A DNA stretch of 64,000 nucleotides from Tabrizicola flagellatus (GTDB lineage Bacteria > Pseudomonadota > Alphaproteobacteria > Rhodobacterales > Rhodobacteraceae): NCBI RefSeq assembly GCF_008271465.1, contig NZ_VMDU01000003.1, forward strand, positions 62,001 through 126,000. Reading direction: 5' to 3'. This document shows positions 6,810 through 46,038 of this stretch, piece by piece. Under the pieces are notes generated by a model. It searched no databases and was not told the origin of the DNA. It saw only the letters and a program-made list of their open reading frames with translations. Position 1 is the stretch's first letter. Each line of letters begins with the position of its first letter. Both the position numbers and the translations under genes were made by a program.

Positions 6810-6841
6810 CTTGCCCTTTTCCAAATACTCCCGCCGGAGGC
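6810..6841. repeat. Dispersed intergenic repeat (copy 2, reverse orientation)
   Basis: Reads CTTGCCCTTTTCCAAATACT followed by CCCGCCGGAGGC: the reverse complement of the copy at 31938-31969, to which it is identical over the full 32 bases. It lies just after the meaB stop codon. Confidence 0.85.
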
Positions 6842-29653: not shown

Positions 29654-30124
29654 ATGGCCAATCACGACTACACGACGCGCATCCTGTGGACCGGCAACCG
29701 GGGCGAGGGGACGGCGCATTACCGCGCCTACGACCGCACCTGGGACATCGCGGTGCCGGGCAAGGCGCCGGTCCACTGTTCCAACGACCCGCTTCTGGGC
29801 GGCGATCCGGCGAAGATGAACCCGGAGGACCTGCTGTTGTCGGCGCTCTCGGCCTGTCACATGCTGTGGTATCTCCATTATGCCAGCGACGCGGGGATCG
29901 TGGTGACCGGGTATTCCGACAGCCCGCTGGGGGTGGGCGAGGTCGGGCGCGGCGGCGCGGGGCGGTTCGTGAAGGTGACGCTGCGGCCGCATGTCGTGGT
30001 GACGCCGGGGACGGACCTTGCGGCGGCCGAGGCGATCCACCACCGGATCCACGAGGTCTGCTTCATCGCCCGGTCGGTGAACTTTCCGGTGGATTACGCG
30101 CCGACCTTCGAGGTCCAGGCGTAA
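29654..30124 (+). CDS. OsmC/Ohr-family thiol peroxidase-like protein
   Basis: 156 residues of the OsmC family, which reduces organic hydroperoxides with a cysteine pair. The first cysteine is in LSACHMLWYLHYA (about residue 69) and the second in HEVCFIARSVNFPV (about 137), at the expected spacing; GGDPAKMNPEDLLLSAL precedes the first. It follows uvrB by 23 bases on the same strand and may share its transcript. Two hairpins in the next gap may end the transcript. Confidence 0.92.
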   Translation: MANHDYTTRILWTGNRGEGTAHYRAYDRTWDIAVPGKAPVHCSNDPLLGGDPAKMNPEDLLLSALSACHMLWYLHYASDAGIVVTGYSDSPLGVGEVGRGGAGRFVKVTLRPHVVVTPGTDLAAAEAIHHRIHEVCFIARSVNFPVDYAPTFEVQA

Positions 30125-30200
30125 CGCTCGTCGCAGGCTGCGCCGCTCCTCGCCGGGCGGCCCGCGACGACACGCCGAAGGCGCGGGAGGAGCCGTCACG

Positions 30201-30239
30201 GGCGCGACATCCGATGTCGCAAACCGGACGGTTTGCGCC
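30201..30239. repeat. Tandem hairpins between osmC and the GMC oxidoreductase
   Basis: GCGACAT-CCG-ATGTCGC (30204-30220) directly abuts GCAAACC-GGAC-GGTTTGC (30219-30236); flanking GGCGC and GCGCC can pair around both. No U-tract follows. It could be a transcription end or an intergenic repeat. Confidence 0.6.
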
Positions 30240-30280
30240 CATGGCCCCCGCTAGGGTCGCGCCGGGGTCTGGGGGCGCGA

Positions 30281-31894
30281 ATGGACGAGACCGATTACAT
30301 CATCGTGGGCGCGGGCTCGGCCGGTTGCGTCCTGGCCGATCGGCTGACCGCGAGTGGCCGCCACCGGGTCACGGTGCTGGAGGCAGGCGGGACGGACCGG
30401 CGGTTCTATGTCCAGCTGCCGCTCGGCTACGGCAAGCTGTTCTACGATCCGGCGGTGAACTGGCTTTACAAGACCGAACCCGACCCGGGGCTGAACGGGG
30501 CGCAGGACCACTGGCCGCGCGGCAGGATCCTGGGCGGGTCCTCCAGCATCAACGCGATGGTCTGGATCCGCGGGCATCGCGCGGATTACGAGGACTGGGG
30601 CCGCGCGGCGCCGGGCTGGGGCTGGGACGAATGTCTCGCCGCCTATCGCGCGCTGGAGGACAACGAGGCCGGCGCGGACGAGTTCCGCGGGACGGGGGGG
30701 CCGCTGTTCATCTCGGCCAACCGGACGGGGCTGCATCCGCTGGTGGCAAGCTATGTCGCGGCCTGCGGCGAGGCGGGGCTGGCGGAAAACCCGGATTTCA
30801 ACGGCGCGCGGCAGGAAGGCGCGGGCATCTACCAGATGACGATCAAGGCGGCCCGGCGCAATTCGGCGGCGCGGGCCTTCCTGCGGCCGGCGATGAAGCG
30901 GCAGAACCTGCGCGTGCTGACCCGGGCGCTGGTGACGCGGGTGCTGATCGAGGGCGGCCGGGCAGTCGGGGTGGAGTATCGCCAGGGCGGCGCGACGCGG
31001 GTCTTGCGGGCGCGCGCCGAGGTGATCCTGGCCGGGGGCGCGATCAACTCGCCGCAGCTGTTGCAATTGTCCGGCATCGGGCCGGGGGCGCTGTTGCAGG
31101 GGCTGGGGATCCCGGTCGTCCGCGACAATCCGAATGTCGGCGACCATCTGAGCGACCACCAGGGGCTGAACTACACCTGGTCGATGAAGGTGCCGACCTA
31201 CAACGACGAGCTGCGCCCCTGGTGGGGCAAGCTGCGCGCGGGGTTGCAGTATGTCCTGGGCGGGGGCGGGCCGCTGTCGAAGTCGATCAACCATGGCGGC
31301 GGCTTCTTCCGCACACGGCCCGACCTGGACCGGCCGAACATGCAGCTGTATTTCCAGGCCTTCTCGACCCTGATCCCGCGCGGGGGCGAGCGGCCGATCT
31401 TGACGCCGGACCCCTGGTCGGGCATGTCGATCGGCCTGTCGAACTGCCGGCCCACCAGCCGGGGCCATATCCGGCTGCGCAGTCCCCGGCCGGAGGAGCA
31501 TCCGGTGATCACCGCGAATGCCTATTCGACGAACACCGATGTCGAGGAGATGCTGGCCGCGGTGAAATTCGTCCGCCGCATCGCCGCGCAGCCGGCCCTG
31601 GCGGCACTGATCAAGGAAGAGCTGCGCCCGGGGCCGGAGGTGGTGACCGACGAGGAGCTGATCGCCGATTTCCGCGCCCGGTCGGGGACGGTCTATCACC
31701 CGAGCTGCACCTGCCGGATGGGGCAGGACCCGGAAGCCTCGGTGGTGGATCCGGGGCTGCGGGTGCATGGGGTCGGCGCGCTGCGGGTGATCGATGCCTC
31801 GGCCTTCCCGAACATCATCGCGGGCAACACCAATGCGCCGTCGATCCTGATGGGGTGGATGGGGGCCGAAAAGGTGCTGGCCGACGCGCGTTAG
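30281..31894 (+). CDS. GMC-family oxidoreductase (choline dehydrogenase-like)
   Basis: 537 residues. The FAD-binding motif DYIIVGAGSAGCVLADRL is at the N-terminus, GRILGGSSSINAMVWIRG follows, and the catalytic His lies in VYHPSCTCRMG (about 476) with the paired Asn in GNTNAPSILMGW. It oxidises an alcohol; choline is the best-known substrate of close relatives such as BetA, and the convergent betC gene supports that, but motifs alone do not distinguish choline from other alcohols. ATG 30281 starts right at the FAD fold. Confidence 0.88.
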   Translation: MDETDYIIVGAGSAGCVLADRLTASGRHRVTVLEAGGTDRRFYVQLPLGYGKLFYDPAVNWLYKTEPDPGLNGAQDHWPRGRILGGSSSINAMVWIRGHRADYEDWGRAAPGWGWDECLAAYRALEDNEAGADEFRGTGGPLFISANRTGLHPLVASYVAACGEAGLAENPDFNGARQEGAGIYQMTIKAARRNSAARAFLRPAMKRQNLRVLTRALVTRVLIEGGRAVGVEYRQGGATRVLRARAEVILAGGAINSPQLLQLSGIGPGALLQGLGIPVVRDNPNVGDHLSDHQGLNYTWSMKVPTYNDELRPWWGKLRAGLQYVLGGGGPLSKSINHGGGFFRTRPDLDRPNMQLYFQAFSTLIPRGGERPILTPDPWSGMSIGLSNCRPTSRGHIRLRSPRPEEHPVITANAYSTNTDVEEMLAAVKFVRRIAAQPALAALIKEELRPGPEVVTDEELIADFRARSGTVYHPSCTCRMGQDPEASVVDPGLRVHGVGALRVIDASAFPNIIAGNTNAPSILMGWMGAEKVLADAR

Positions 31895-31937
31895 GGCAAG
31901 GGGCCGTCCTTGCGGCATCGAGCCGCGCGGACGGCGG

Positions 31938-31969
31938 GCCTCCGGCGGGAGTATTTGGAAAAGGGCAAG
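31938..31969. repeat. Dispersed intergenic repeat (copy 4, forward orientation)
   Basis: Reads GCCTCCGGCGGGAGTATTTG then GAAAAGGGCAAG; the reverse complement of copy 2. It lies between the convergent GMC oxidoreductase and betC genes. Confidence 0.85.
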
Positions 31970-31994
31970 GGGGGCGCTGGCTGCACCACCCGCC

Positions 31995-33497
31995 CTATTC
32001 GCCGCGGGGGAAGCGCTTCTGTTCCTCCAGCACGTTCAGGTCCATGTGGTTGCGCATGTAGCGTTCCGAGGCGGCGCGGAGCGGCTGGTAGTCCCAGGGG
32101 AAATAGGCGCCGTTGCGGAGCGCCTCGTAGACGACCCAGCGCCGGGCCTGGCTTTCGCGGACCTGGGCGTCATAGGCGGCAAGGTCCCAGCGGGCATCGG
32201 CAAGCTTGCGGAAATGCGCGAGGATTTCGGCCGCGCGGGGGTCGTCGGCGAGGTTCGTCGTCTCGCCCGGGTCGTTGGCCACGTCGAAAAGCATCTCGGG
32301 GTCGGCCGGGCAGCGGATGTATTTCCAGGCGCCCTCGCGCAGGGCGACGAGCGGCGTGATCGAGCCTTCGGCGGCATATTCCATCGCCACCGGGCCGCGC
32401 GGGGCGCCGTTCGCCACCGGGATCAGGTTGACGCCCTCGGTCCAGGGGGCGACCTCGTCCATCGAGATGCCGGCCAGCGCCGCGAGCGTGGGGGCGAGGT
32501 CGATGGAGGAGACCGGGGTGTCGATGCGGCCTGCCGGCATCCCGGGGGCGGCGATCATCAGGGGGACGCGGGCCGAGCCTTCGAAGAAATTCATCTTGAA
32601 CCACAGGCCCTTCTCCCCAAGCATCTCGCCGTGGTCGGACAGGAAGAGGATATGGGCCTCTTGCCGCGTGGCTTCGAGCACCGCGAGGATCTCGCCGATC
32701 TTGTCGTCGATGTAGGAGATGTTGGCGAAATAGGCGCGGCGGGCGCGGCGGATGTGGTCCGGGGTGATCGTGAGCGCGCGCCAGTCGCAGGCGTCCATCA
32801 GGCGCTGGGAATGGGGGTCCATGTCCTCATAGGCCAGTGACGGGGGCGGTTCGCATTCGGGGGTGCCCTCGTAGAGGTCCCAGTACTTGCGGCGGGCGAC
32901 GAAGGGGTCGTGCGGGTGGGTGAAGCTGACCGTCAGGCACCATGGCCGCGGATCGGCCCCGCGCGACAGGTCGTAGAGTTTCTGCACCGCCTGGAAAGCC
33001 ACGTCGTCGTCGTATTCGTACTGGTTGGTGATCTCGGCCACCCCCGCGCCGGTGACGGAGCCGAGGTTGTGGTACCACCAGTCGATCCGCTCGCCCGGTT
33101 TGCGGTAGTCCGGGGTCCAGCCGAAGTCGGCGGGGTAGATGTCGGTGGTGAGCCGCTGTTCAAAGCCGTGCAACTGGTCGGGGCCGACGAAATGCATCTT
33201 GCCGCTGAGGGCCGTCTGATAGCCGGCGCGGCGCAGGTGGTGGGCGTAGGTCGGGATATCCGAGGCGAATTCGGCGGCGTTGTCGTAGACTCGGGTGCGG
33301 CTGGGCAGCTGACCCGACATGAAGCTGGCGCGGGCGGGCGCGCAGAGCGGCGAGGCGGTGTAGCAGTTGGCGAACCGGGTGGACCGCGCGGCAAGGCGTT
33401 TCAGGTTCGGGGCATGCAGGAAATCGGCCGGGCCGTCGGGAAACAGCGTCCCGTTCAGCTGATCGACCATGAAGATCAGAAGGTTGGGCTTGGTCAT
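31995..33497 (-). CDS. betC: Choline-sulfatase
   Basis: 500 residues. The protein matches choline-sulfatase along its whole length: NILIFMVDQLNG-type N-terminus, the sulfatase signature SPLCAPARASF with the cysteine to be converted to formylglycine (about residue 52), GKMHFVGPDQLHGFEQRL, TVSFTHPHDPF, LSDHGEMLGEKGLWFKMNFFEGSARVPLM, and the C-terminus ALRNGAYFPWDYQPLRAASERYMRNHM. It releases choline and sulfate from choline-O-sulfate. A formylglycine-generating enzyme is needed in trans and is not in the window. It follows bhcR on the same strand by 88 bases. Confidence 0.94.
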   Translation of the reverse strand: MTKPNLLIFMVDQLNGTLFPDGPADFLHAPNLKRLAARSTRFANCYTASPLCAPARASFMSGQLPSRTRVYDNAAEFASDIPTYAHHLRRAGYQTALSGKMHFVGPDQLHGFEQRLTTDIYPADFGWTPDYRKPGERIDWWYHNLGSVTGAGVAEITNQYEYDDDVAFQAVQKLYDLSRGADPRPWCLTVSFTHPHDPFVARRKYWDLYEGTPECEPPPSLAYEDMDPHSQRLMDACDWRALTITPDHIRRARRAYFANISYIDDKIGEILAVLEATRQEAHILFLSDHGEMLGEKGLWFKMNFFEGSARVPLMIAAPGMPAGRIDTPVSSIDLAPTLAALAGISMDEVAPWTEGVNLIPVANGAPRGPVAMEYAAEGSITPLVALREGAWKYIRCPADPEMLFDVANDPGETTNLADDPRAAEILAHFRKLADARWDLAAYDAQVRESQARRWVVYEALRNGAYFPWDYQPLRAASERYMRNHMDLNVLEEQKRFPRGE

Positions 33498-33585: not shown

Positions 33586-34398
33586 TCACGCGGGCCGGGT
33601 GCCGCCCGTCGCCTCGGTCACCTGATCGGCCGCAGCCCTGACCAGGGCGCCGATCCGGGTCGCGTCCGACAGGCCCATGCGGAAGGCGGGGCCCGAGACG
33701 GAGAGGCCCGCCACGGGTTCGCCATGCGCGTTGAAGATGGGTGCTGCGACGCAGCGCATGCCCTCGGCGCGTTCCTGGTCGTCGATGGAAAAGCCGCGCT
33801 CCCGCGTGCGGTTTAGGTCGCGGAGGAGGGCCGATTCGCTGGTGAGCGTCAGCGAGGTGAACTTTTCCAGGCCCTTGCGGGCGAGGATGCCGCGGGTCTT
33901 CTCCTCCGGGTACCAGGCGAGAAGCGCCTTGCCGATGCCCGAGGAATGCATCGGCGCGCGGGTGCCGGGGGGGAAGAAGGCGCGGATCGCCTCGTAGGTC
34001 TCGACCTGGGCGACGAAGAAGACCTCGTCCTTGACCTCGATCCCGAGGTTCGCGGTTTCCCCGGTTTCGCGCATGAGCGCATCCATCGGCTGCCGCGCGC
34101 GTTCGACGACCTTGGTCCGGCGCAGGAAGGCGGAGCCGACGCGGAAGGCGCCGGGGCCGATGTGCCAGAACTGGCCGGGTTCCTCGACCTCGACCATGCC
34201 GTGTCCTTGCAGGGTGACGAGGGCGCGGAAGACGGTGGCGATGGCCTCGCCCGTCTCCTCGGCGATTTCCGAGAGGGTGCGGCCCGGGTTCAGCGCGACG
34301 AAGGACAGGATGTCGAGGCCGCGGTCCAGGGCCTGCACGGTGTTCTGGTCCGTCTTGTCGTTGAACGCCTTCGGGCGGCCGCGGGGTTTCTGGGCCAT
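33586..34398 (-). CDS. bhcR: IclR-family regulator BhcR
   Basis: 270 residues. An N-terminal winged helix (VQALDRGLDILSFVALNPGRTLSEIAEETGEAIATVFRALVTLQ) is followed by the IclR effector domain (TGETANLGIEVKDEVFFVAQVE through APIFNAHGEPVAGLSVSG). Its position divergent from bhcABCD identifies it as the regulator of the beta-hydroxyaspartate cycle; the characterised homologue binds the bhc promoter and responds to glyoxylate. The ATG at 34398 is chosen because MAQKPRGRPKAFNDK is a typical start; an earlier in-frame start exists at 34455. Confidence 0.93.
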   Translation of the reverse strand: MAQKPRGRPKAFNDKTDQNTVQALDRGLDILSFVALNPGRTLSEIAEETGEAIATVFRALVTLQGHGMVEVEEPGQFWHIGPGAFRVGSAFLRRTKVVERARQPMDALMRETGETANLGIEVKDEVFFVAQVETYEAIRAFFPPGTRAPMHSSGIGKALLAWYPEEKTRGILARKGLEKFTSLTLTSESALLRDLNRTRERGFSIDDQERAEGMRCVAAPIFNAHGEPVAGLSVSGPAFRMGLSDATRIGALVRAAADQVTEATGGTRPA

Positions 34399-34547
34399 CG
34401 GGGGCCTCCTTCGCATGAAAAAGCGCAAGTCTTTGACCGGGTTGAGGATTAGCATGCGATTGTGACAGTGAAAAATCTTTTCGAAAAAATTGTGCGGATT
34501 GGTCGCAGGGCGTAGCTTTTGTGGGCGATCTTTCAGGGAGTTGCCCG
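34399..34547. promoter_or_regulatory. Divergent bhcR-bhcA control region
   Basis: A 149-base region, AT-rich between 34440 and 34500. It contains the palindrome TTTTCGAAAA (34478-34487) inside AAATCTTTTCGAAA (34473-34486), and GCATGC (34452-34457). The 14-nt element recurs, inverted, between bhcA and bhcB, so it is a candidate BhcR operator. No strong -35/-10 pair was identified. GGGAG at 34536-34540 is the bhcA ribosome binding site. Confidence 0.6.
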
Positions 34548-35738
34548 ATGTCCATGCAGAACCCGGTTTTCATCCCCGGCCCGACCAACATCCCCGACTC
34601 GGTCCGCAAGGCCTGCGACATGGGCACCCTGGACCACCGCTCGCCGGCCTTCGCGCGACTGTTCAAGCCGGCGGTGGAGGGGGTGCGGCGGGTTCTGAAC
34701 ATGACGCAGGGCGAGGTCATCCTCATCCCCTCCACCGGCACGGGTGGCTGGGAGGCGGCGATCACCAACACGCTGTCGCCGGGCGATACGGTGCTGGCGG
34801 CCCGCTTCGGCATGTTCAGCCACCGCTGGATCGACCTCTGCCAGCGCCACAAGCTGGACGTCGAGATCATCGAGACCCCCTGGGGGCAGGGCGCGCCGCT
34901 GGCGGCCATCGAGAAGGCGCTGCGGGCCGACAAGGGGCATCACATCAAGGCGGTGCTGGCCACGCACAACGAGACCGCGACCGGGGTGAAGTCCGACATC
35001 GCGGGCATCCGGGCCGCGCTGGATGCGGCGGGGCACCCTGCGCTTCTGTTCGTGGACGGGGTGTCGTCCATCGCGTCGATGCCCTTCGACTTTGCCGGCT
35101 GGGGCGTCGATATCGCCGTGGCGGGCAGCCAGAAGGGCTTCATGCTGCCGGCGGGCCTGGCGATCCTGGGGGTCTCGCCGAAAGCGATTGCGGCGATGGA
35201 GACGGCGCGGCTGCCGCGAACCTTCTTCGATTTCAAGGACATGCTTACCTCTTACGCCAAGGGCGGCTATCCCTATACCCCGGCCGTCGGCCTGATCGCG
35301 GGCCTTGCCCATTCCATCGACCTGCTCGAGGCGGAAGGGCTGGACAACGTCTATGCCCGCCACCACCGCCTGGCCGAGGGCGTGCGCCGCGCGGTCCTGG
35401 CCTGGGGGATGACGCCCTATGCGGCCTCGCCCGAGCTGTATTCCGACACGGTGACGGCGGTGAAGGTGCCGGCGGGCTGCGACGGGACGGCGCTGGTGCA
35501 GCTTGCGGCGTCGAAATACGGCATGGCCTTCGGCGTGGGGCTGGGCGAGGTTGCGGGCAAGGTGTTCCGCATCGGCCATCTGGGGATGCTGACCGACGCG
35601 ATGGTGCTGTCGGGCCTTTGCGTGGCCGAGATGTGCATGGCCGATCTTGGCTGGAAGGTCGAACTGGGCAGCGGCGTGGCCGCGGCGCAGGAGTACTATC
35701 GCGGGACGGTTCCGGCCCTGGCGATGGCGGCGGAGTGA
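34548..35738 (+). CDS. bhcA: Aspartate-glyoxylate aminotransferase BhcA
   Basis: 396 residues, class V aminotransferase related to serine-glyoxylate aminotransferase. In the beta-hydroxyaspartate cycle it converts aspartate plus glyoxylate to oxaloacetate plus glycine, the net-product step. N-terminus PVFIPGPTNIPDSVR, loop STGTGGWEAAITNTLSPGD, and the PLP lysine in GSQKGFML (Lys196). Length equals characterised BhcA. It is the first gene of the bhc operon and is followed by two stem-loops before bhcB. Confidence 0.95.
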   Translation: MSMQNPVFIPGPTNIPDSVRKACDMGTLDHRSPAFARLFKPAVEGVRRVLNMTQGEVILIPSTGTGGWEAAITNTLSPGDTVLAARFGMFSHRWIDLCQRHKLDVEIIETPWGQGAPLAAIEKALRADKGHHIKAVLATHNETATGVKSDIAGIRAALDAAGHPALLFVDGVSSIASMPFDFAGWGVDIAVAGSQKGFMLPAGLAILGVSPKAIAAMETARLPRTFFDFKDMLTSYAKGGYPYTPAVGLIAGLAHSIDLLEAEGLDNVYARHHRLAEGVRRAVLAWGMTPYAASPELYSDTVTAVKVPAGCDGTALVQLAASKYGMAFGVGLGEVAGKVFRIGHLGMLTDAMVLSGLCVAEMCMADLGWKVELGSGVAAAQEYYRGTVPALAMAAE

Positions 35739-35741
35739 AAC

Positions 35742-35785
35742 GCAAATCCTTTCGAAAAGATTTGCAAAATCCTTCGAAGGATTTT
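35742..35785 (+). promoter_or_regulatory. Two tandem palindromes between bhcA and bhcB
   Basis: First element: GCAAATCCTTT-CG-AAAAGATTTGC (35742-35765), an imperfect palindrome with one mismatched pair. Second element: AAAATCCTTCGAAGGATTTT (35766-35785), perfect over 20 bases and immediately adjacent. The first, read in reverse, contains AAATCTTTTCGAAA, also found upstream of bhcA. As RNA they form stem-loops that could adjust bhcA versus bhcBCD levels. Confidence 0.75.
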
Positions 35786-35810
35786 GGGCCCCAACGGAAA
35801 GGGCAGGAAA

Positions 35811-36782
35811 ATGAAAGACATGAACGGACTGATGGTCCCCACCTACGACGACATGCTGGCCGCGCATGACCGGATCCGGCCGCATATCCGACTGACCCCG
35901 GTGCGGACCTCGGACTACCTGAACGAACTGGCCGGCTGCGAGCTGTTCTTCAAATGCGAGAACTTCCAGGAGCCGGGCGCCTTCAAGGTGCGTGGGGCGA
36001 CGAACGCGGTCTTCGGCCTTTCGGACGAGCAGGCGAGGAAGGGCGTGGCGACCCATTCCAGCGGCAACCATGCCTCGTGCCTGTCCTATGCGGCCATGCT
36101 GCGCGGCATCCCCTGCAACGTGGTCATGCCTCGCACCGCGCCGCAGGCGAAGAAGGACACCGTGCGCCGCTATGGCGGGGTCATCACCGAATGCGAACCC
36201 TCGACCTCCTCGCGCGAGGCGACCTTTGCCGAGGTCCAGGCCCGGACGGGCGGCGATTTCGTCCACCCCTACAACGACCCCCGCGTGATCGCGGGCCAGG
36301 GCACCTGCTCGCGCGAGTTCATGGAGCAGACCGGGGGTCTCGACATGGTGGTGGCGCCGATCGGCGGGGGCGGGATGATTTCCGGCACCTGCCTGACGCT
36401 GGCGACGCTGGCGCCCGAGACGAAGGTGATCGCGGCAGAACCGGAACAGGCCGACGACGCCTATCGCAGCTTCAAGGCCGGGCATATCATCGCCGACGAC
36501 GCGCCGAAGACCATCGCCGACGGGCTTCTGGTGCCGCTGAAGGACCTGACCTGGCATTTCGTGCAGAGCCATGTCAGCGAGATCTACACCGCCTCGGAGC
36601 AGGAAATCATCGACGCGATGAAGCTGACGTGGAAGCACCTGCGCGTGGTGATGGAACCCTCGAGCGCGGTGCCCCTGGCGGTGGTCCTGAAGAACCGCGC
36701 GGCCTTCCGGGGCAAGCGGGTGGGCATCATCATCACCGGCGGCAACGTGGATCTGGACAAACTTCCCTGGATGAAAGGCTGA
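35811..36782 (+). CDS. bhcB: Beta-hydroxyaspartate dehydratase BhcB
   Basis: 323 residues, fold type II PLP enzyme. It removes water from (2R,3S)-beta-hydroxyaspartate to give iminosuccinate. PLP lysine in GAFKVRGAT (Lys59), substrate loop HSSGNHASC, phosphate-binding IGGGGMISG. Length and order match characterised bhcB. The ATG at 35811 has AGGAAA (35805-35810) directly before it, with GGAAAGGGCAGG a few bases further upstream. It is related to the dehydratase at 20667. Confidence 0.95.
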   Translation: MKDMNGLMVPTYDDMLAAHDRIRPHIRLTPVRTSDYLNELAGCELFFKCENFQEPGAFKVRGATNAVFGLSDEQARKGVATHSSGNHASCLSYAAMLRGIPCNVVMPRTAPQAKKDTVRRYGGVITECEPSTSSREATFAEVQARTGGDFVHPYNDPRVIAGQGTCSREFMEQTGGLDMVVAPIGGGGMISGTCLTLATLAPETKVIAAEPEQADDAYRSFKAGHIIADDAPKTIADGLLVPLKDLTWHFVQSHVSEIYTASEQEIIDAMKLTWKHLRVVMEPSSAVPLAVVLKNRAAFRGKRVGIIITGGNVDLDKLPWMKG

Positions 36783-36787
36783 GAACC

Positions 36788-37951
36788 ATGAACAAGCACA
36801 CGGATTTTCAAGGGCTTGAGGTGGGTTACGACATCCCGGCCCTCCCGGGCATGGACGAGAAGGACATCCAGACGCCCTGCCTGATCCTCGACCTCGACGC
36901 GCTGGAGCGGAACATCGTCAAGATGGGCGACTATGCGAAGGCCCACGGGATGCGGCATCGGGTGCATGGCAAGATGCACAAGTCGGTGGACGTGGCCAAG
37001 CTGCAGGAGCGGCTGGGCGGCGCAGTGGGGGTCTGCTGCCAGAAGGTCAGCGAGGCCGAGGTCTTCGCCCGCGGCGGCATCAAGGACGTGCTGGTGTCGA
37101 ACCAGGTGCGCGACCCGGCCAAGATCGACCGCCTCGCCCGCCTGCCGAAGCTGGGCGCGCGGACCATCGTCTGCGTGGACGACGTGGCGAACGTCTCGGA
37201 CCTGTCGGCGGCGGCGGTGAAGCATGGCACCGAGATCGAGGTTTTCGTGGAAATCGACTGCGGCGCGGGCCGCTGCGGGGTCAAGACGCCCGAGGAGGTG
37301 GTGGCGATCGCCAAGGCCGTCGCGGCGGCGCCGGGGCTGAAGTTCACCGGAATCCAGGCCTACCAGGGCGCGATGCAGCACCTCGACCGCTACGAGGACC
37401 GCAAGGCCAAGCTGGATGCGGCGATTGCCCAGGTGAAGGCCTGCGTCGATGCGCTGGAGGCCGTCGGTCTGAAACCCGAGCTGGTGTCGGGCGGCGGTAC
37501 CGGGTCCTACTATTTCGAAAGCAATTCAGGTGTTTACAACGAGCTTCAGTGCGGCAGCTATGCCTTCATGGACGCCGATTACGGCCGCATCCTCGACAAG
37601 GACGGCAACCGCATCGACCGGGGCGAATGGGAGAATGCGCTGTTCATCCTGACCTCGGTGATGAGCCATGTGAAGGCCGACAAGGCGATCTGCGACGCGG
37701 GGTTGAAGGCACAGTCGGTGGACAGCGGGCTGCCGGTGATCTTCGGGCGCGACGACGTGAAATACGTCAAGTGCAGCGACGAGCATGGGGTGATCGAGGA
37801 TCCGCAGGGCGTGCTGAGGGTGGGCGACAAGCTGAAGCTGATCCCCGGTCACTGCGACCCGACCTGCAACGTGCACGACTGGTATGTCGGCGTGCGGAAC
37901 GGCAAGGTCGAGGTTGTCTGGCCGGTCTCGGCGCGCGGCAAGGCCTACTGA
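36788..37951 (+). CDS. bhcC: Beta-hydroxyaspartate aldolase BhcC
   Basis: 387 residues, fold type III PLP enzyme of the D-threonine aldolase family. It condenses glycine and glyoxylate to beta-hydroxyaspartate. The PLP motif is RVHGKMHKS (Lys62 likely), with QAYQGAMQHL and VSGGGTGSYYFE further along; the metal site near the C-terminus is GHCDPTCNVHDW. Length equals characterised BhcC. It follows bhcB by five bases (translationally close) and is separated from bhcD by 94 bases carrying a repeat. Confidence 0.95.
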   Translation: MNKHTDFQGLEVGYDIPALPGMDEKDIQTPCLILDLDALERNIVKMGDYAKAHGMRHRVHGKMHKSVDVAKLQERLGGAVGVCCQKVSEAEVFARGGIKDVLVSNQVRDPAKIDRLARLPKLGARTIVCVDDVANVSDLSAAAVKHGTEIEVFVEIDCGAGRCGVKTPEEVVAIAKAVAAAPGLKFTGIQAYQGAMQHLDRYEDRKAKLDAAIAQVKACVDALEAVGLKPELVSGGGTGSYYFESNSGVYNELQCGSYAFMDADYGRILDKDGNRIDRGEWENALFILTSVMSHVKADKAICDAGLKAQSVDSGLPVIFGRDDVKYVKCSDEHGVIEDPQGVLRVGDKLKLIPGHCDPTCNVHDWYVGVRNGKVEVVWPVSARGKAY

Positions 37952-37968
37952 TCGACAGAGTCGCCACG

Positions 37969-38018
37969 TCCCGCCGGAGGCATCCGACCGGCGGGAGTAT
38001 TTCCGATAAGAGCAAGTC
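37969..38018. repeat. Dispersed intergenic repeat (copy 5, forward, with hairpin)
   Basis: TCCCGCCGG (37969-37977) pairs with CCGGCGGGA (37988-37996) across a 10-base loop; GTATTTCCGATAAGAGCAAG follows. It is a member of the same family as 31938-31969, placed between bhcC and bhcD, and could influence bhcD expression. Confidence 0.78.
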
Positions 38019-38045
38019 AGGGTCCTGGGCCCTGGAAAGGCTGCC

Positions 38046-39005
38046 ATGCTGATCGTTCCCGAGGCGCTGATCGCCTCGCTTGTCACCCCCGAGGACGCCT
38101 TCCGCGCGGTCGAGGCCTGTTTTGTGGCCATGGCGCGGGGCGAGGCCTACAACTTTCCCGTCGTGCGCGAGGCGCTGGGCGGGGGGCGGCAGTACGGGTT
38201 CAAGTCCGGGCTGGACCGGGCGGCGGGGCAGCTGGGCGTGAAGGCGGGTGGCTACTTCCCCGGAAATGCCGAAAAGGGGCTGATCAACCACCAGTCCTCG
38301 GTTTTCCTGTTCGATCCGGATACGGGGCGGCCCGTCGCGATGGTGGGCGGGAACCTTCTGACGGCGCTGCGGACGGCGGCGGCCTCGGCGATTGCCATCG
38401 ACCGGCTGGCGCGGCCCGAGGCCGAGGTGCTCGGCATGGTCGGTGCCGGACATCAGGCGGGGTTCCAGTTGCGTGCGGCGGCCCGGGTGCGCCGGTTCCG
38501 GCGGGTGATCGCCTGGAACCCCCATCCCGAGATGCTGCCCCGGCTGGGAGCGGTGGCTGCCGAACTCGGGTTGCCGTTCGAAGCGGTCCCGCTGGAGCGG
38601 ATGCGCGAGGCGGATGTGGTGATCACCATCACCTCTTCGCCGGCCGCAAGCCTGATGGCGGCCCATGTCAGCCCCGGGACTCATCTGTCCTGCATGGGCA
38701 CCGACACCCGCGGCAAGCAGGAGGTCGAACCGGCCCTGGTTTCCGGCGCATCGGTGTTCACGGACGAGGTCGCGCAGTCGGTCACCATCGGAGAGGCGCA
38801 GCATGCGGTTACCGCTGGGCTGATCGATGCCGCTTCCATCACCCCTCTGGGCGATGTCCTGATCGGCGCGCATGCCGGGCGGCGGTCTGCAAGCGAGATC
38901 ACCCTTTTCGACGGCACCGGGGTGGGTCTTCAGGATCTTGCGGTCGCGGCGGTGGCTGTGGATCGCGCGCGTGAACGGGGGCTCGGAGTCGATGTCGGCG
39001 TCTAA
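38046..39005 (+). CDS. bhcD: Iminosuccinate reductase BhcD
   Basis: 319 residues, ornithine cyclodeaminase/mu-crystallin family. In the cycle it reduces iminosuccinate to aspartate with NADH, regenerating the amino donor for BhcA. The Rossmann motif is MVGAGHQAGFQLRAAAR (about 132-148), preceded by GGNLLTALRTAAASAIAIDRLA. Position at the end of bhcABCD and length identify it as bhcD rather than a true ornithine cyclodeaminase. It has its own short leader, so it may also be expressed separately. Confidence 0.94.
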   Translation: MLIVPEALIASLVTPEDAFRAVEACFVAMARGEAYNFPVVREALGGGRQYGFKSGLDRAAGQLGVKAGGYFPGNAEKGLINHQSSVFLFDPDTGRPVAMVGGNLLTALRTAAASAIAIDRLARPEAEVLGMVGAGHQAGFQLRAAARVRRFRRVIAWNPHPEMLPRLGAVAAELGLPFEAVPLERMREADVVITITSSPAASLMAAHVSPGTHLSCMGTDTRGKQEVEPALVSGASVFTDEVAQSVTIGEAQHAVTAGLIDAASITPLGDVLIGAHAGRRSASEITLFDGTGVGLQDLAVAAVAVDRARERGLGVDVGV

Positions 39006-46005: not shown

Positions 46006-46038
46006 GCCTCTGGCGGGAGTATTTGGGAAAAGGGCAAG
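46006..46038. repeat. Dispersed intergenic repeat (copy 6, forward orientation)
   Basis: GCCTCTGGCGGGAGTATTTG then GGAAAAGGGCAAG; one substitution and one extra G relative to copy 4. It is located between the sixA-like gene and the next SDR gene. Confidence 0.83.

Follow-up and report, generated by a model that had tools for sequence, protein, structure and literature searches.

The window analysed here, a stretch of 64,000 nucleotides from the 3.6 Mb draft genome of Tabrizicola flagellatus (contig NZ_VMDU01000003.1, here C3, positions 62001-126000), carries at 33586-39005 the genes of the beta-hydroxyaspartate cycle (BHAC), bhcR-bhcABCD. We put at roughly 85% the probability that this complete BHAC operon is a mosaic, in which bhcR, bhcA and bhcD mostly share one history and bhcB and bhcC, having others, were replaced in place. 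The genes and the NCBIfam models that identify them are as follows.

33586-34398, minus strand: bhcR, predicted IclR-type regulator BhcR, 270 amino acids, ATG at 34398 (NF045644, 394 bits, cut-off 350)
34548-35738, plus strand: bhcA, predicted L-aspartate--glyoxylate aminotransferase, 396 amino acids, Lys196, ATG at 34548 (NF045640, 713 bits, cut-off 650)
35811-36782, plus strand: bhcB, predicted beta-hydroxyaspartate dehydratase, 323 amino acids, Lys59, allele Pro55, ATG at 35811 (NF045641, 578 bits, cut-off 550)
36788-37951, plus strand: bhcC, predicted 3-hydroxy-D-aspartate aldolase (the key enzyme), 387 amino acids, Lys62 (NF045642, 777 bits, cut-off 690)
38046-39005, plus strand: bhcD, predicted iminosuccinate reductase, 319 amino acids (NF045643, 524 bits, cut-off 500)

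All five genes were intact and stood in the order and orientation given by the original prediction, a reading of this DNA made from its letters; the lysines it had named in BhcA, BhcB and BhcC were also where it had placed them, using the likely starts, which for the five genes differ from those of the longest open reading frames. The equivalog cut-offs were passed with E-values of 3e-118 to 3e-234, far beyond chance, and no other NCBIfam family listed for the five proteins exceeded its own cut-off. The next best families were far behind: IclR for BhcR (195 bits), pyridoxamine-pyruvate transaminase for BhcA (169 bits), threo-3-hydroxy-L-aspartate ammonia-lyase for BhcB (342 bits), alanine racemase for BhcC (26 bits) and alanine dehydrogenase for BhcD (189 bits). 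Among solved structures, the best relative of BhcC was D-3-hydroxyaspartate aldolase 6qkb (737 bits, 387 of 387 residues aligned; 326 bits for the best D-threonine aldolase), and that of BhcD was iminosuccinate reductase 6rqa (402 bits; 158 bits for alanine dehydrogenase), both of which we take to be Paracoccus denitrificans proteins. It is extremely unlikely that the four enzymes are instead paralogs outside the BHAC, namely a serine-glyoxylate aminotransferase, a threonine dehydratase, a D-threonine aldolase and an ornithine cyclodeaminase. Pfam did show only such broad families, and the nearest structures were 6pk1, called a serine-glyoxylate aminotransferase, for BhcA (386 bits) and serine racemases for BhcB, no structure named BhcA or BhcB being among the matches listed; however, the five cut-offs, the matches to 6qkb and 6rqa, and a gene order and regulator as described all speak against that explanation.

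Alignment with characterised enzymes, proposed earlier as a check, therefore bore out BhcC and BhcD and left BhcA and BhcB without a solved BHAC counterpart among the structures listed. Closer kinship to serine-glyoxylate aminotransferase, IlvA, D-threonine aldolase or ornithine cyclodeaminase was found in NCBIfam for none of the four enzymes. The expectation that automatic annotation would list four unrelated enzymes did not hold: NCBIfam release 20 has named models for all five proteins, and because their cut-offs are passed, current NCBI annotation should name all five. Judged by its sequence, the locus is a complete, intact and already known BHAC operon with a divergent regulator; that the pathway was known had been correctly said. 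The cycle and the bhcR-bhcABCD cluster of P. denitrificans were reportedly described by Schada von Borzyskowski and colleagues in 2019.

The first sign of discordance was that, in 100 loci (five of them duplicates), the identities of BhcB and BhcC to the window did not track those of BhcR, BhcA and BhcD. Protein distances were compared across 67 genomes with all five bhc genes and rpoB, each taken once: 11 of the same genus and 56 others, mostly one per genus. For the genus, 19 genomes were searched and rpoB was obtained for 12 (one slightly short), of which G008, without an intact bhcD, was left out. The 56 others were picked by BhcA, which was over its cut-off in 175 of 395 sampled family genomes, so that the cluster itself is ordinary. 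From these 175, 80 stretches were chosen among the higher-scoring matches listed; 11 had no intact gene in the stretch (some stretches ending early), eight were not included and five had no or only partial rpoB. The raw Spearman correlations were 0.74 for BhcR with BhcA, 0.70 for BhcA with BhcD and 0.65 for BhcR with BhcD. With BhcR, BhcA and BhcD in turn, BhcB correlated at 0.27, 0.26 and 0.23 and BhcC at 0.08, 0.01 and 0.14, and BhcB with BhcC at 0.14. RpoB correlated with the same three proteins at 0.34, 0.43 and 0.54, and with BhcB and BhcC at 0.12 and 0.08. These values suggest a mosaic operon, with largely one history for bhcR, bhcA and bhcD and with bhcB and bhcC differing from those and from each other.

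A different account, in which the operon was inherited as a unit and BhcB and BhcC only seem discordant through slow evolution and little signal, is improbable. BhcC and BhcB do have the smallest mean distances of the five proteins (0.182 and 0.204) and the lowest reliabilities (0.77 and 0.85), but these reliabilities permit much higher correlations than those observed. Random halves of each protein correlated at 0.63-0.89, with reliabilities of 0.77-0.94; hence signal is not missing in the Bhc proteins. Already corrected for noise, the correlations in the 67 genomes were 0.81 for BhcR with BhcA, 0.76 for BhcA with BhcD and 0.73 for BhcR with BhcD, compared with 0.31, 0.29 and 0.27 for BhcB with BhcR, BhcA and BhcD, 0.10, 0.01 and 0.16 for BhcC with the same three, and 0.17 for BhcB with BhcC.

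The mosaic was also visible along the operon. In 60-column segments, the last segment of bhcA correlated with BhcD at 0.61, but the first two of bhcB at 0.29 and then 0.08. With BhcA, these two bhcB segments correlated at 0.40 and 0.00, the bhcC segments at -0.17 to 0.10 and the opening bhcD segment at 0.71. Tree likelihoods ranked the genes as the distance correlations did. Divided by the average loss with two random trees, in a calculation by hand from the tree likelihoods, the loss with a foreign tree was 0.20-0.27 among BhcR, BhcA and BhcD, 0.36-0.42 for the BhcB tree on these three and 0.51-0.55 for the BhcC tree. In 150-nucleotide segments, identity to the window fell near 35700 (loci L127 and L133), near 36750 (L133) and near 37950 (all four loci shown), saturation hiding the exact ends and the donors. 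Gene order was kept across the compared loci while the operon genes have significantly different trees. Paracoccus lutimaris and P. halophilus, for example, shared 90% identity in BhcA, 86% in BhcD and 76% in BhcB; among 77 loci of a wider comparison, the closest non-Paracoccus BhcB to that of P. lutimaris was from Rhizobium lusitanum (88%, with BhcA at 74%). These 77 loci had been selected for the likeness of their BhcC to that of the window, a choice that flattens the BhcC distances there.

As a control, the glc operon (glcD, glcE and glcF) was measured in 29 of the same genomes, a single control that gives no firm base rate; 45 genomes had been searched and the best 30 loci taken, one of which (in G167) had no GlcD found in its stretch. 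Within-operon correlations of glc were 0.41-0.62 in the 29 genomes and 0.29-0.54 in the 18 of them outside the genus; for glc with RpoB they were 0.49-0.66 and 0.25-0.34. For bhc, BhcA with BhcD, BhcB with BhcA and BhcC with BhcA gave 0.73, 0.22 and 0.27 in the 29 genomes, and 0.63, 0.40 and -0.06 in the 18. The glc operon is thus more coherent than bhcB and bhcC, though barely so for bhcB in the small set.

Two alleles of BhcB were distinguished at residue 55 (window numbering), directly before the motif GAFK59: Pro in 73 and Ala in 99 of 172 sequences, some genomes being counted twice. With 19 intermediate sequences excluded, the two groups were separated by 17 positions, each more than 85% one residue in one group and more than 70% another residue in the other. 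The BhcB cut-off was passed by members of both the far group (L042, L084, L127 and L061) and the near group (L055). In the 67 genomes, residue 55 changed once on the BhcB tree, 19 times on the RpoB tree, and 12, 13, 12 and 14 times on the BhcR, BhcA, BhcC and BhcD trees; one change compared with 12-19, together with the rejections in approximately unbiased (AU) tests given below, opposes inheritance as one unit. The 19 changes on the RpoB tree compare with a mean of 22.6 for shuffled labels, 41 of 500 shuffles being as low, and therefore the BhcB allele is near-random relative to species. On the trees of the four other Bhc proteins, the changes were fewer than in all 500 shuffles. The two deep BhcB groups would also be expected if an ancestor had carried two bhcB genes in tandem and differential loss had left either allele. 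This seems unlikely to us: many independent losses at one site would be required (12-19 changes), at no locus was a second bhcB noticed between bhcA and bhcC, though no search was aimed at such pairs, and the genome G001, described next, is not explained.

Within the genus, RpoB accepted the 11 species as a clade (p 0.48). BhcR, BhcA and BhcD grouped the ten species without G001 (support 97, 100 and 94) and rejected the clade of all 11 (p 4e-9, 1e-4 and 0.008). BhcB also rejected the clade of 11 (p 3e-4) and accepted the ten with G001 and without G010 (0.64); its rejection of a genus clade including G010, like the 17 separating positions, speaks against inheritance of the operon as a unit. The DNA identities to the window varied along both loci: 66-73% in bhcR and bhcA, 84-87% in bhcB and bhcC and 72-73% in bhcD for G001 (locus L118), and 82-89% in bhcR and bhcA, 73-75% in bhcB and 82-85% in bhcC for G010 (locus L127). 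The glc proteins of both were genus-like (92, 82 and 95% to the window for G001; 92, 77 and 92% for G010). By these trees and identities, G001 has foreign bhcR, bhcA and bhcD flanking native bhcB and bhcC, the former three falling outside the genus and the latter two within it, and in G010 only bhcB is foreign. The BhcC of G017 was distant, at 81-83% to the ten other genomes, and lay amid close BhcB and BhcD, yet the genus clade is not rejected by BhcC. Across the 11 genomes, BhcC correlated with BhcR, BhcA and BhcD at -0.14 to -0.17.

The match of BhcA to 6pk1 counts against the BHAC assignment, and several results weigh against the mosaic. The AU tests rejected every foreign tree, those of BhcR, BhcA and BhcD among themselves included, so that the frame is not perfectly congruent. 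Among the 56 non-genus genomes, the noise-corrected correlations were 0.64-0.68 within BhcR, BhcA and BhcD, 0.37-0.43 for BhcB with them, -0.08 to 0.02 for BhcC with them and 0.26 for BhcB with BhcC; the case for BhcC is therefore equally strong there, and that for BhcB weaker. In the 11 genus genomes, the raw correlation of BhcA with BhcB (0.66) was about that of BhcA with BhcD (0.65), RpoB correlated significantly with none of the five Bhc proteins, and BhcC accepted the clade of all 11 (0.63). The groups for the clade tests were chosen after the identities were known, and the trees used were quick ones without a mixture model. The 19 intermediates among 172 BhcB sequences mean that the two groups are not sharply apart, and in the 18 non-genus genomes glcD correlated with glcE at just 0.29 and glcE with glcF at just 0.32, so that some loosening may be general. 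Furthermore, fourfold-site identity failed as a clock: its means were 0.485 in bhcB, 0.479 in bhcC, 0.448 in bhcA, 0.433 in bhcD and 0.406 in bhcR (0.41-0.49), and because these sites are largely saturated, no recent donor is nameable.

Homologs from elsewhere can replace genes within a conserved operon while its gene order stays, and such mosaic operons formed by in situ gene displacement are a general phenomenon. The bhc mosaic is an instance of this known evolutionary process; it differs from mosaic operons generally in that the replacements would fall, separately and repeatedly, on two adjacent genes in the middle of a single pathway operon. No description of it was found in the literature searched, a partial search that did not include the original 2019 BHAC study. 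We propose that bhcB and bhcC were replaced in place, each separately and more than once, by copies from other lineages, through homologous recombination within the strongly conserved bhcB-bhcC stretch. With modest confidence, we lean towards a broader reading in which the BHAC is modular in Rhodobacteraceae: the bhcR, bhcA and bhcD frame would travel together, the bhcB and bhcC core would be swapped one gene at a time, across genera and even across orders, as a shared pool homogenised by recombination, and the BhcB alleles at residues 54-55, next to the catalytic lysine, may be catalytically different.

BhcC was over its cut-off in 26 of 32 genomes of the genus. The 80 named loci closest in BhcC were mainly from Rhodobacteraceae, with some from Rhizobium and its kin and two from Marinobacterium. 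The one-contig family genome G081 has two BhcA genes over the cut-off (C1:2603122 and C1:4118542), and two copies in one cell would give a site for exchange. The same-genus genome G016 has two bhc clusters (L125 and L136), which may be an artefact, the assembly being a draft whose contamination is 5%. A same-genus bhcC match (L027, G002:C9:394-1551) has one internal TGA, which may reflect decay of this copy or an error in sequencing.

The roles of the enzymes and of BhcR are assigned by homology to characterised proteins, following the pathway steps given in PMC8307300 and PMC11323563. BhcA would transaminate glyoxylate with aspartate as the amino donor, yielding glycine and oxaloacetate; BhcC would join glycine with a second glyoxylate to form (2R,3S)-3-hydroxyaspartate, which BhcB would dehydrate to iminosuccinate and BhcD would reduce back to aspartate. 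The predicted net result is the conversion of two glyoxylate to oxaloacetate without carbon loss, with the operon switched on by BhcR in a glyoxylate-dependent manner. The glyoxylate probably comes from glycolate via GlcDEF, the adjacent frames of glcD, glcE and glcF lying at about 227-230 kb on the same contig. They were named by gene order and similarity, the GlcD model being below its own cut-off (447 vs 568 bits). Malate synthase G is encoded on C9.

Next to bhcR, at 29654-33497, the window has genes for an OsmC-like protein, a GMC oxidoreductase (below the BetA cut-off) and the choline sulfatase BetC. The original prediction had pointed to the neighbourhood as of interest, an expectation that was not borne out: this arrangement adjoins bhcR in only part of the genus, with no sign of a functional link. 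The gene betC adjoined bhcR in 12 of 20 same-genus stretches, a few of the others being too short to show it; of the 80 named loci, L031, L063 and L089 alone had betC there, and all three are same-genus records. On account of this patchiness, a functional link of bhc to choline use was rejected.

In an alignment to E. coli IclR, BhcR of the window had G, I, D, S and S at positions 160, 161, 212, 239 and 241 and M at 220, the same six residues that a table in PMC11323563 gives for P. denitrificans BhcR. At 143, 146 and 154 the window had A, A and A, compared with T, A and S in that table; the positions were hand-counted from the tabulated residues. The bhcR-bhcA gap holds a candidate operator:

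34469-34492, plus strand: candidate BhcR operator TGAAAAATCTTTTCGAAAAAATTG, conserved core, 79 nucleotides before the bhcA start

We infer that BhcR would bind here. Of 152 distinct bhcR-bhcA gaps, 96 contained the core GAAA-N3/4-TTTTC, for which simple shuffles averaged 0.45, and 81 contained a related pattern, with a median start 78 nucleotides upstream of bhcA (5th-95th percentile 75-154). Allowing up to three mismatches, the 24-mer TGAAAAATCTTTTCGAAAAAATTG had a single occurrence in the genome. A potential palindromic BhcR site upstream of bhcA is reported in PMC11323563.

The gaps between the structural genes contain further inverted repeats:

35742-35786, no strand: two adjoining palindromes in the bhcA-bhcB gap, 12-nucleotide arms 92% and 11-nucleotide arms 100% complementary
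37969-37996, no strand: hairpin in the bhcC-bhcD gap, 9-nucleotide arms TCCCGCCGG and CCGGCGGGA, 100% complementary

Among 20 loci from the genus or close to it, the bhcA-bhcB gap was at least 55 nucleotides in ten, and in nine it was 72-94 nucleotides with paired palindromes of varying sequence (the window, L031, L121, L123, L126, L063, L130, L131 and L133). At the family level the gap was at most 16 nucleotides in 75 of 78 loci and longer in three. The possibility that hairpins flanking the bhcB-bhcC block caused the exchange was rejected, the bhcA-bhcB palindromes being absent from loci with either BhcB allele (L127 with Ala55; L136, L120 and L118 in the other BhcB group); AAATCCTTCGAAGGATTT, found at one genome site only, also counts against hairpin-driven exchange. 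A separate dispersed element, GGCGGGAGTATTT, had 40 occurrences in the genome and none in a reversed control. It lies in the window at 6823-6836, 31943-31956, 37989-38002 and 46011-46024, with 36 more genome sites, and the copy at 37989-38002 begins in the right arm of the bhcC-bhcD hairpin.

Compared with P. denitrificans, the operon has the same genes and, transcribed divergently, an IclR-type regulator whose oxygen-binding ligand residues are those described in PMC11323563, and the potential palindrome before bhcA has a conserved counterpart in the window. The palindromes in the bhcA-bhcB gap are a difference. As for the solved BHAC enzymes, a comparison that covers BhcC and BhcD, the latter is the less similar of the two.

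According to PMC11323563, glycolate, which the BHAC consumes, is released by algae at very large scale, and PMC7574528 describes a related bacterium without the aldolase gene that could use glycolate only for energy. Carriage of the BHAC predicts growth on glycolate, and the two natural BhcB alleles would be ready-made variants for engineering the cycle into plants and bacteria. If the mosaic is true, the tree of BhcC, the key enzyme, tells little about the origin of the whole pathway.

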